Source: Owenia fusiformis
Lineage: Eukaryota; Annelida; Polychaeta; Sabellida; Oweniidae
Assembly: GCA_903813345.2 (NCBI GenBank)
Contig: CAIIXF020000003.1
Span: 29,901,248 to 29,965,247 of the forward strand
DNA length: 64,000 nt
Reading direction: 5' to 3'
The notes under the pieces are model-generated. The model made no database searches and was not told the DNA's origin. It saw only the letters and a list, made by a program, of their open reading frames with translations. Of the stretch, positions 27,201 to 33,200 are shown piece after piece (position 1 is the first letter of the stretch; every line of letters begins with the position of its first letter). The translations under genes and the position numbers were made by a program.

Positions 27201-30200
27201 GTTCATTAACATGGAGTCAATGGGCCACATTGTTCTCTTGGATGATCATATACATGACCTGAATATTGAACTCCAATATGACATGTCCAGACATCATTTG
27301 GGCATTTATTGCATTCCAATGTTTAGTTTAATGTGAAATAAGCCTTGGGGATATATCTGCAACTGGCTCATGAAACAAGCTTTTCACCTGTATATATAGC
27401 TCCAGTATGATAGGGAGGTCTGCCCAGATTAAAGCACTCTGTCTAACTTAAGCGCAAATATGAATACTGAATTAAAGGCCCCATGTAAAGTTTAAACAAC
27501 TTTGCCTTATATTGTAGTCTTACCCAATGTTATCAAAGTGTGATATGTGAAACTTTTTTTTTTAATTTCAAAAAGTGGTTTTTGATAGACTTTTTGTTCC
27601 AAAATTTGTGAATTTATTTAAAACCAACTTTTAGAGGTCACTCGAATCTTCTAATTAGCCACAATTCATACCAATGCATAGCATACATCCTCCCATGTTT
27701 TTTGCCGAAAAAATTAAGAAAATCGGTTGATAAACAAGCGAGAAATGAACTTATCAGTGCATGAAAATGGTTCTGAGAAAAATGCATTTCAAAATTTTAG
27801 TTCTCATAGAAACCAATGGTACAATGATATCTAAAACATAATTTATTCTTCCTTTTTACCTGGTTAGACAATCAACATTGTTTTTTTTATGAAAGTCTAG
27901 CACATTTAGAAAAGATTGACATCGAAAAAAAAATTCAATTTATTTCAAAAAGTTTTTGTTACCTTAGTGACATCACTTATGTTTCAAAATATTTTTGATA
28001 AGCTAAAACATTGAAGTGGCCCATTAAATATGACATTTTATTATTGAAATAGTGTGTCTTTTGTTCAATCTTTGCATTGGGGTTAAAAATATAATCTTTT
28101 TTGAAATGCATTAAAAAATATTTGATGATTAAGAAATTTCAACTTTTTTTGAAAAATGGCGGGAAATTTGAATATATGAGAAATGAAATGCTCACAACTT
28201 TTTTTTCAAAAAAATTTTTTTGTTCAAAAATCTCTAAAATCACTTTTTAAGTCCTGACAAATAGTAAATGAATGATAAAAAAATATTTTCAAACTCTAGA
28301 CGGGGACTTTAAGGTAGGCCTATTGCAAAACACCTATAGCATCAATATAGTACAGAGGTCTGCTTAATGCAACCAGATTGTACTATACTGTCTAACTTCG
28401 TGCAAATATGAACACTGAATACTGAATTAAGGTGGGCCTTGTGCAACAACTTTTTCACCTGTACAGTTTTTCATTTTTTCATTATATGTATACATGTACA
28501 TACAAGTGAATGGTCTTTAATCCTGAATTGCGAAGAAGTCATTCTATTTGGCCAGTAGCAAAAGACAGAAAAGCAACAAGTGAAGTATTGATTATATTAG
28601 CCAGATAGAAACTTGCTGGCTCGCGGGAAAAATCAAGCAATAATATAATAGATGGATTTTTGTACTTTTGAAAAGTCTGATTGATCTATATTACAGACAT
28701 ACCACACTGTGGATTTGTTATTAAAATATAAATGATAGAAATGTTTTAATCAATATATTTCTCGTGAGTCATTCAGTGCTTTTTGCATGTAAGCTTATGG
28801 ATTATCACTTGTATAAAGATTTACGAGTAGACAGACTGTTACTTGATGCAAGACAGAAGAAAGGAAAAATTGGAATTTATGAAAACACTGTATAAATATA
28901 TGTACATGTAAGATGAAGAAATTAAATACATGCATGTCTATTTTCCTTAGGTTTTATATCTAAACTTATTTTGGCACAGAAATATTAAGATTCCCATGAT
29001 TAGGGTATAATTGAATAACAACCTGTATAATTGACCACTGGTTTGCCCCCCAGATAGTCTCTGTTTATATATATAACAACTAACATGTACTTGTATAATA
29101 TTATGACTTCATCACGGTGTATAACCCAAACGCTCCTACATGCACGACGGAGCGTTCCATTACTGAAATTAAACAAAGAAACGCTCCGGAGTAGGAAAAC
29201 TGTCTGGCGGGAATGATGAGCCGTCTGACAATTTCCCCAATAATGGGAATAAGAGGTATGAGTTACATATTTCGAGTATACCATTCGATGGGTGTGATAT
29301 TCATGTTGTACGTGGCTTGCTGTTGACGTTTGAAGCAATTAGGAAGAGCTGTACGAAGCAGTATAGTTATTAAAATTCAAAAACGCATTTGTCATTCTAC
29401 CGGTCAAAACCCCTTTTGTCGATACTTGTGATTAGTTGAGCCAAGATTAGAGCACCAACGTATATTTTAGTCAAATTCCAATGCTTCAACGCACCATACA
29501 TTATCGTAATAGTGATTTGATGACCGAAAATCCAGTCTTAAAAATGATGACATTCTCATATTCAAGAAACGCTCCGATCTGGTTAACACAGTGAATTGGA
29601 AACGCTCCGGTGGTCTAGATCAGTTAAGGAAATATATAGCTTGCCTTTTCTTTTCAGGAAGAGAAAGAAAAGATCTATTATACCCCTTGGCATCAATGGA
29701 AGAAAGATTAATTCACATATAACTTTTCGTTTTTTCTATAGTTTTATGATTTAGCACATATGTAGGCATGACATCATCTAATGTATAGGCTTTAATCAGC
29801 TAGTTGCACGTTTAACACCACCAGGTTCAGATGTTTCAATTTGCCTAACAAGTACAACACGTTTTTGAGAGATAGATTCGATTCGGAACTCTTCTCTAAT
29901 AATCTGAAAATGATATCAAAACAAAATGGTAAGAGCGTTTCTAAAATTGTGGTCTAAATCGACGGAGCGTTTCGAGGAAAACAAGCGATTTCTCGAGAAC
30001 AAGTAATGGATTTGGACTGGGATTTTAGGAAATGAGAATATACGAGTTTGTGATCTACTGCTTAAACAGAAAGATTAACGTTTTCATAGAAATACTAGTT
30101 TAATTCGTAATTTGTGGTCAAATCGTCATCTTCAGATTCGTTCGATCTACACTACGGAGCTTTGATCAAGCAAATAACAGTTTACCACCAAAAGTTGAAT

Positions 30201-33200
30201 AAATAAGATCTTTGCTCACGGTATTGTTCATCGAATGGTACATAATATTTCACCATGACATATGATATGTAAGAGAAACGAGAGAAACAATACTTACGGT
30301 CATAGTAGAATCTTCATTAGCCGCCATTTTATTTCGCTCCGGAGCGTTTCCGCGTAAATGTAACGCTCCGTCGTGCATGTAGGAGCGTTTGGGTTATACA
30401 CCGTGTTCATGTTTCCATGTGAACTCGCATCACAGGATATTCACTTAGCCTGCCAAATAATCACATATCTATATCAATATCTGTAACACAAAATTGATAT
30501 AGAAAATCTAAATTGTACTGCTTATCCCTATATTTTATGTTGTATATTTCTCAAGTATTTTTGGAAGCTATATGGTTGCTGTAGATAAAATGTCATCTAT
30601 TGGTTCTTATTAAGATTTGATGTTGAAATGTTGCCCCTAGTTACTTACCCAAAACATTTAGACATAATTAAATATCATCACTTTAGTGAATGTGTTGTTC
30701 AACAGACTTCTAATAAATTGCTTTGCAATTACAAGAGCTTACAATAGGAACTAATACTGATATGTCCCCTAGAGAGCATTTATTTTCATCAAAACACTGT
30801 CTTAACCACTCTATTAGCAGACAGGCCCACCATGTAATCTTATTACTACTGCAATTACAGCAGAACAGAGATCAGGCAGAAGCATGTTATACTTGTAGTT
30901 ATCTCTGATTTGACTCTCTCATGATCGCAATTAAGATTGTAAAATTAGATTAGTAAAGTAAAAATAAATTTAAGGTAGGACCTGGTTTATCAACACAGGG
31001 GTTTCACTAGAATTTCTCACCACAGGCTAAATAAATGAAAACAACAGGAAAATTTAATGGAAATCATAAACTTAACATGGATGAAAAGTTGAAAAGTCCC
31101 TAAAAACAACAGGCAACTTTGTGAAAACAACCAGAGAAAATCGCCTGTCGCCTGCTGCTAATGAAACCCCTGCAACAGGTAGGTAAGATATTAGTCTTGA
31201 TAGATTTTAGGTTCAGCCATGTCCTACCTTAATTGCGAATGAATAAAATAAATTTGATTTGTGATTGGTTCTGTGAGGAGGTTAGTCCATTCACACCTTT
31301 TACCAATACTTTCTTGCACTCTGCATTGTAGTCTATTGGTAAAAATGTAATACGTATATCCAACATAATAGTTTTTCAACCGAGAACAACTATATGACTT
31401 ATTCTCTATAAAAGTAGTGTATATTCATAAATTCGGAGGTCATAAATGTCTATTTGGAGGTTATTTCTATGGCTGAGAGGGTCAGCCGGGGATAGAAAAT
31501 ACTGGCAAAGAGTGCTCCAAGAGGAAGAAGCCTATATTTAGGTTACAAGCTAAGCAAGGTTACATTCCATGTTACCATGTTACCATAGACATGATGACTC
31601 AATCAGGCAATCAATGATCCCCCAATATGGTTTGAATCAGATGAAATACATTGTAAAGCAGAGATTTTTTATCAGAGAAAATACTGTAAATGATGAGCAG
31701 CCATTTTTATTATGATGAGCATGCATCCATTTTTATTATGGTTATATGGATACCCGTAGAAAGCAAATCCAAACACATAATGATGGGTGAGTCTTGCATG
31801 AAGTCTTGAATCCCACCCTCCATTATTCATTTCTCTCATCTACTAATATAAGTTAGTGGGGGAGGTCCACATGGGAAGGTGCAAGACAAGAAGAGACAAT
31901 ATCTCAATAACTCTTACTGAAGTACAGCACTGCTCAGACTTATTTTTGGAAAAGTGAAGGTTCAGTGAAGTTTTTTTGTAAGGGCACATATGTTTTCTGT
32001 TCATTTATTCTGATGTTCTTTCAGCATACAATACTTGCTTCCCGATGTGATTGTTATCATACCTTGGAAAGCTAAGATGGTCCTTATTAGGTCATTCTGA
32101 CTTTTAAAAAAGGACTCAAAATTAACTCTCGTGTAAAATCAATGATGATAGCATTTGTATCAAGGATGATAATATTTTAAAGGCTGATAGCAATCATATG
32201 TACAAATGAAGATAATATGTTTCAATGATGATAACTTTTGAATCAAGGATGATAATATTTTCAAGGCTGATAGCAATCATATGTACAAATAGATAACAAG
32301 TTTCAATGATGATAACATTTGAATCAAGGATGATAACATTTTTCAAGGCTGATAGCAATCCTATGTACAAATGAAGATAATATGTTTCAATGATGATAAC
32401 ATTTGTATCAAGGATGATAATATTTTAAAGACTGATAGCAATCATATGTACAAATGAAGATAACAAGTTTCAATGATGATAACATTTGAATCAAGGATGA
32501 TAATAGTTTAAAGGCTGATTGATATTTTTAAGCTGATAGCAATCATATGTACAAATTAAGATAATATGTTTCAATGATGATAACATTTGAATCAAAAATG
32601 ATAATATTTTAAAGGCTGATAGCAATCATGAGAACAAATGAAGATAACAAGTTTCAATGATGATAACATTTGTATCAAGGATGACAATATATATTCAATG
32701 GCTGTCAAGTATCAATTACTGGAACTGATTGATAAAATGTTTGAATCTGGCCTTAGAGAATTATAGCAAAATATATGTCCCTGTAAAATATACTGTAAAT
32801 ATTGAACAGAAATAGCTATTAAGTTACCTCAGGCTATTCATGATTTTTGGCTTGATTTTAATCTTATTTCAATTACACATCTGCTTGGATTATAAGGATA
32901 ATACTACATAGTCTTCTATATTCAATACACAATATTTTTATGTTTAATGTTCTTTTCTACATTCCTTACATTATTAATAAATTCTTAAGATAAAAATCAA
33001 AAATCAATGAGCATGAATTAAGCATCAGATGTAAAGTTAGGTCTTATTACCAAATCATTTCATATTGAAAAATATCAAATATTCTGACAGATGATGTTAA
33101 AGATGCATTTGCGCATTATGTTTTATTTAGCCAGGTTTGCTCTTGCGTCTATTTGTGGAAATGATAACATGCAAGTAAAAACAAGAAAATAACTGCCTTA

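Follow-up and report, generated by a model that had tools for sequence, protein, structure and literature searches.

Which transposase mobilised the short element at positions 29113-30405 of the window (the whole 64,000-nucleotide stretch of Owenia fusiformis contig CAIIXF020000003.1 analysed here) is a question raised by the ends of this element, as CACNGTG termini with 5-bp target site duplications (TSDs) tempt toward a Transib or RAG label. Long relatives of the element in the same genome give a different answer. These relatives have CAC ends, 5-bp TSDs and two genes, one encoding a transposase and one encoding a C2H2 zinc-finger protein, while the window copy keeps both ends together with truncated starts of the genes. 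It is considered very probable that these elements represent a two-gene transposon whose transposase contains a YqaJ-type nuclease domain, and that the window copy is an internal-deletion derivative of it. The window element would be a non-autonomous member of an apparently undescribed group, with ends like those of Transib and RAG-like (RAGL) transposons and a different enzyme.

The window element and its copies

The element is 1,293 bp in length (29113-30405, no strand), as delimited by its ends, its TSD and its copies elsewhere in the genome. It is bounded by perfect 44-bp terminal inverted repeats (TIRs), the left at 29113-29156 on the forward strand with CACGGTG outermost and the right at 30362-30405 on the reverse strand, with 48 of the 49 outermost positions pairing between the two. 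The TSD TTCAT lies on the left at 29108-29112 and on the right at 30406-30410 (neither with a strand). Further inside, TACCATTCGATG was found approximately 165 bp from the left end (29279-29290, forward strand) with an inverted partner approximately 165 bp from the right end (30229-30240, reverse strand).

Searching the 498-Mb host genome with the 24-bp end, allowing up to three mismatches, gave 344 forward and 345 reverse matches, while the reversed pattern used as a control gave none in either direction. From these end-sequence counts the family has about 345 copies. A DNA search for copies, in which 40 places were scored of 621 first-look candidates, gave identities to the window copy of 96-100% (window copy included), with other fetched copies (L020, L022) down to about 92%. 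These identities indicate that movement was recent, yet took place in more than a single burst.

The TSD was examined in two samples. Exact 5-bp TSDs flanked all 20 copies picked for an exact match at both ends, as well as the window copy. A further 12 copies were picked via single exact ends, ten of which possessed the second end, and nine of these ten had an exact 5-bp TSD, the exception being L023, which has none. Overall, 30 of the 31 window-family copies checked (window copy counted) have an exact 5-bp TSD. The duplicated sites are AT-rich, with 23% GC across 21 sites against 33% GC in the window, and gave a weak symmetrised consensus of c-A-W-N-W-T-g (21 sites). A preceding sequence-only reading of this DNA had described the element's coordinates, its 44-bp inverted ends and the flanking TTCAT, had proposed recent movement, had remarked on the AT-rich TSD and had called for the TSD length to be checked across many copies; on each of these points it agrees with the results above.

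Some longer copies were considered as autonomous elements and rejected. L001 and L002 each consist of a 1.29-kb element into which other sequence, apparently of transposons, is nested; by eye, the insert in L001 (746-1521) has TA on both flanks and inverted ends starting CCGTATT, and that in L002 (approximately 655-2160) is another element inside the window-family copy. The 12.7-kb pair at C3:20306981-20319643 (L035/L036) is a copy holding a large insert, with a longest open reading frame (ORF) of 131 amino acids. Single ends were also observed. At L024 (51-2002; C2:29000766 onwards) one element end is followed after approximately 170 bp by a 524-amino-acid ORF resembling, by eye, a family-92 glycosyltransferase, with no partner end within 8.7 kb. 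At L028 (C3:10116690 onwards) one element end directly adjoins tandem repeats of approximately 167 bp extending for about 2 kb, with no partner end within 5.3 kb.

Coding relatives and the architecture of their transposase

Among the end positions listed, one inverted pair lying 11.0 kb apart on C3 was found to delimit an 11,022-bp element (C3:22030556-22041577; L033 and L034) with the same ends as the window element and the TSD ACCAC. These positions were listed by flank class for two of four classes (all but YR and YY), with 100 of 142 positions given for class RY; because the listing is incomplete, the genome may contain additional long copies. The 11-kb element encodes a large transposase ORF, split into stretches of 559, 489 and 128 amino acids, with a C2H2 zinc-finger ORF on the opposite strand. 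A coding fragment 86-87% identical (L065) was set aside, as no ends of the window family were seen in it.

Two segments are common to the window copy and this relative. The left segment (29113-29708, forward strand; 80.6% identical over 596 bp) extends as far as the beginning of the transposase exon and, from a comparison of ORFs by eye, ends in a truncated transposase N-terminus. The right segment (29867-30405, reverse strand) is 80.2% identical over 546 columns. A probable relic of exon 1 of the zinc-finger gene is situated at 30298-30327 on the reverse strand, consisting of ten residues followed by GTAAGT; its counterpart in the 11-kb relative is MAAFEDRTMT followed by GTAAGT, the splice donor being kept in both. 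The probable relic start of exon 2 (29847-29915, reverse strand; 21 residues) was identified by comparing ORFs by eye, the corresponding sequence in the relative being YCFQMIRDELGIEPISPRKVV. The apparent retention of zinc-finger exon 1 along with the starts of exon 2 and of the transposase exon argues that the window element arose by internal deletion from a cut-and-paste DNA transposon with two genes.

The motif ACGCTCCG occurs seven times in the window element, where 0.02 occurrences are expected, and nowhere else in the window. Six of the seven have end distances matching those in the 11-kb relative. On the left side these are at 29148-29155 (reverse strand, 36 from the end), 29181-29188 (forward, 69) and 29569-29576 (forward, 457, or 456 in the relative), and on the right side at 29963-29970 (reverse, 442), 30340-30347 (reverse, 65) and 30363-30370 (forward, 42). 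The copy at 29602-29609 (forward) is without a counterpart.

Other members of the group were found with searches of the genome, in which a transposase exon gave at least 95 matches at E <= 0.01 (95 of 155 candidates scored) and the L039 protein at least 36 at E <= 0.001 (38 of 49 candidates scored). Uninterrupted transposase ORFs were present in L037 (1,438 amino acids), L038 (1,467) and L039 (1,221). A blind end search around these and L066, which required CAC/GTG and an exact 5-bp repeat, identified ends at three of the four ORF-bearing loci, all but L039. The resulting elements are of 15,673 bp (TSD TATTA, TIR of approximately 600 bp at 95%, end match 15/15), 10,802 bp (TSD TACAT, 47-bp TIR at 98%, 14/15) and 17,430 bp (TSD GAGAG, 63-bp TIR at 100%, 15/15). 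Runner-up CAC pairs with 5-bp TSDs at the same three loci had 8, 10 and 9 matches, and at the first two of these loci eight alternative 3-mer starts had 12 at most. At the first locus, a pair matching at 14/15 and flanked by a 4-bp repeat falls within the long TIR. Self-BLAST, made without assuming CAC, yielded the same ends. Including the 11-kb relative, all four long elements (10.8-17.4 kb) thus have CAC termini, exact 5-bp TSDs, a C2H2 zinc-finger gene and transposase ORFs. The two genes are convergent in three of the elements and divergent in one, and several exons make up the transposase of the 17.4-kb element.

The termini are CACGGTG in the window family and CACGGTG, CACTGTG, CACCCTA and CACGGG/CACGAG in its relatives, with CACNGTG ends in three of the six families of the group. 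Two of these are additional deletion families. For that with ends CACGGTGAGCAACC, six copies were examined, four had both ends and all four had a 5-bp TSD; for that with ends CACTGTGGCTAG, eight copies were examined, seven had both ends and five had a TSD of 5 bp. In both, parts of this transposase lie about equally far from the CACGGTG or CACTGTG end.

The motifs of the transposase were found in the order D1, YqaJ-type nuclease, D2, DxxH and E from the N- to the C-terminus, with a conserved block preceding D1. D1 takes the form DGK...GDxDL, the YqaJ (lambda-exonuclease-type) nuclease E...D...ExK and D2 DGQ[W/F], followed by DxxH..N.R and then E as [S/V/N]E..F. In L037, D1 is at 404, the YqaJ match at 603-755, D2 at 957 and DxxH from 1337, while the E is encoded by the following exon. 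YqaJ was above the Pfam cut-off in four of eight members (L037, L038, L068, L069), and its residues E, D, E and K do not vary among L037, L038 and L039. Counted in the same eight member sequences to which the patterns had been fitted, W..R.....TG, ExK, DGQ[W/F] and [SVN]E..F each occur in all eight and DxxH..N.R in six. An N-terminal C2H2-like finger pattern is present in three of the four long elements (E37, E38, E66) and absent from the 11-kb one. From these motifs we infer a single RNase H active site, made up of D1, D2 and E, that belongs to the DxxH class and comes nearest to the P/THAP9 type, with the YqaJ nuclease as an insert between D1 and D2. A pattern search of IMG/VR gave 154 matches, none of which was a relative. 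Three stretches of the host genome (C331:13953-14606, C486:31779-32432 and C3:16789001-16789558) are 27% identical to the YqaJ region of L039; they sit in ORFs of 2,362-2,378 amino acids and perhaps represent another large YqaJ protein family.

Taken as a mechanism, a transposase supplied in trans would pair the CACGGTG ends and excise the element, and the excised ends would be joined to AT-rich target sites cut with a 5-bp stagger. The ACGCTCCG motifs near both ends are likely candidates for binding sites of the transposase finger or of the zinc-finger partner. More speculatively, the YqaJ nuclease could process or degrade DNA, for instance that of the donor site, while excision or repair is under way.

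Alternative explanations

Several observations weigh against a two-gene, YqaJ-containing transposon as the source of the window element. Its 11-kb relative is defective, as a stop is followed by a missing segment, that which carries DxxH in relatives, and no intact copy of exactly the window family was found among the end positions listed. The YqaJ match in this relative (L033) is weak (E 0.005) and below the Pfam cut-off, as it is in L066, and none was reported in L039 and L040. The strict pattern of D1 is missing in three of eight members (present in five), that of the first E of YqaJ occurs in only three, and the N-terminal finger is below the Pfam cut-off in the two N-terminal exons and in L037. 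The assignment of the active site (DDE) is based on motifs, and a search of the PDB with transposase profile A1 gave chance matches only. The CACTGTG-ended family has 6-bp TSDs in two of seven copies (L043, L057/L058), and the 16.7 kb examined around L039 (C11:19850386-19854048) yielded no CAC ends flanked by a 5-bp repeat. This 1,221-amino-acid transposase-like ORF may be decayed or domesticated. Lastly, the similarity to P-like transposases described below is low.

The coding region of the 11-kb copy could be unrelated cargo or a nested insertion, with another transposase moving the ends. That a single long coding copy of the exact window family was found, among the end positions listed, and that nested insertions exist in L001, L002 and L035/L036 would fit such an explanation. 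It is given very little weight here, as the homology to the window copy enters both genes (the transposase exon at its start, the second gene in exons 1-2), and as five more families, whose end sequences differ, have all or parts of the same transposase between CAC ends. Membership of the Transib or RAG-like (RAGL/ProtoRAG) transposons is, if anything, even less probable, despite the CACGGTG/CACTGTG heptamers, the 5-bp TSDs and two genes that are convergent in three of four long elements, comparable to RAG1L-RAG2L. The relatives carry a YqaJ-containing transposase with DxxH and E and a zinc-finger protein. In hhalign comparisons the new transposase profile had no significant similarity to RAG1 (P 0.19) or to a fragment of HzTransib limited to the part around the last catalytic residue (P 0.37), whereas RAG1 against HzTransib, the positive control in the same set-up, gave P 0.00026. 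Genome searches with 51- and 148-amino-acid pieces of HzTransib were empty, with no positive control in this genome, and a Pfam RAG1 search, likewise without a positive control, had no match in this genome or in any of 14 control genomes. Transib prefers GC-rich TSDs, which the window family does not fit (23% GC, n=21). The sequence-only reading had proposed mobilisation by a Transib- or RAG-type transposase and had suggested comparing long copies with Transib and RAG1/RAG2-like profiles, with an unrelated transposase in full-length relatives as the finding that would speak against it. Such a transposase is what the coding relatives encode; the reading was right in that the element is real, recently mobile and non-autonomous, its ends starting with CAC and its TSD being truly of 5 bp, and was not supported as to the type of enzyme. 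With CACNGTG ends and 5-bp duplications belonging here to another enzyme, ends alone cannot identify RAG relatives.

A closer call concerns the rank of the group. It may be a divergent lineage within the P superfamily (P/THAP9), having acquired the YqaJ insert and a new TSD length, rather than a separate superfamily, which is held to be possible and still doubtful. DxxH is found both in the new group and in P-like transposases, and Pfam TNP-like_RNaseH_N (PF21787) matched L040 with E 0.0022 (0.0017 with a shorter piece), the match ending at DGQ. A typed chimera without YqaJ gave 0.0004, and the other three chimeras had no such match. All of these values are below the family cut-off, and L040 is the only one of eight members to be matched. 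An hhalign comparison of six members with five P-like proteins of the same genome aligned D2, DxxH and E, together with the residues leading up to E, colinearly, with P 0.023, a probability of 2% and a reversed control of 0.58; short separate segments were not significant (P 0.05-0.57). These results are a weak indication of P-like ancestry of the transposase. Ordinary P-like (TNP-like RNase H) transposases, L076-L084, were observed at 13 matching places in the genome. The P superfamily has TSDs of 7-8 bp, to which the 5 bp of the new group do not correspond, and the additional nuclease and second gene also differ. Pfam scans revealed no THAP domain in the ORFs and N-terminal exons submitted and no hAT family in the ORFs submitted.

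A slight preference is given to an undescribed superfamily, whose transposase would combine two nucleases in one chain, a YqaJ/lambda-exonuclease-type PD-(D/E)xK domain being enclosed by an RNase H fold that is P-like and of the DxxH class, whose second gene would encode a zinc-finger partner, and which would have arrived independently at the layout of CAC ends and 5-bp stagger of Transib and RAG. The novelty of the group is provisional. That it is already catalogued under another name, for instance in Repbase, is a lesser though real prospect, as Repbase and subscription literature lie outside the search, and two papers on bivalves count YqaJ genes with the mobile-element families that expanded or contracted, the passages seen describing no element (PMC7826175, PMC10225492). 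In the PMC literature, the matches listed, in the passages seen, place YqaJ in a described DNA transposon for ISL2EU only, and none describes a YqaJ-containing transposase combined with a zinc-finger gene. If true, a transposase with a second nuclease placed amid its catalytic residues would have an unusual design, and this raises the question of whether the YqaJ domain is part of excision or of processing of the break at the donor. The question can be tested with the three long elements in which large transposase ORFs, the two ends and TSDs of 5 bp are present.

Comparison with known systems

The window family shares with Transib the terminal CAC heptamer and the 5-bp TSD, and differs in that no RAG1/Transib core was detected in the enzyme of the group and in its AT-rich TSDs. 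RAGL transposons possess two often convergent genes (in the passages seen of PMC7204232), a layout similar to that of the new group. The partner gene of the new group is a C2H2 zinc-finger gene in all four long elements, and not the Kelch-type RAG2L of RAGL/ProtoRAG.

The P transposase has an active site of D230, D303 and E531 and a D(2)H motif of the P/THAP9 type, according to the part of PMC8230255 consulted. The new group is alike in its D...D...DxxH...E order and weak colinear profile similarity, and unlike in its CAC ends, 5-bp TSD, YqaJ domain between D1 and D2 and C2H2 gene. ISL2EU, a member of the PHIS superfamily, is likewise an animal DNA transposon carrying a YqaJ exonuclease domain; as described in the passages seen of PMC4482050 and PMC9179366, this domain is in a separate ORF, the TSD is the 2-bp AT, the TIRs usually start with GG and the transposase combines THAP/helix-turn-helix with a PHIS-type DDE domain. 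In contrast, the TSD of the new group is 5 bp and YqaJ lies inside the transposase ORF (L037, L038, and the aligned region in L039). KolobokP, found in lophotrochozoans and some other animals, also combines a nuclease with a DDE transposase of the C/DxxH class, but from the same partial view of its source (PMC9587614) this nuclease is a separate His-Me finger, the terminal direct repeats are long and the TSD, as stated for Kolobok, is TTAA.

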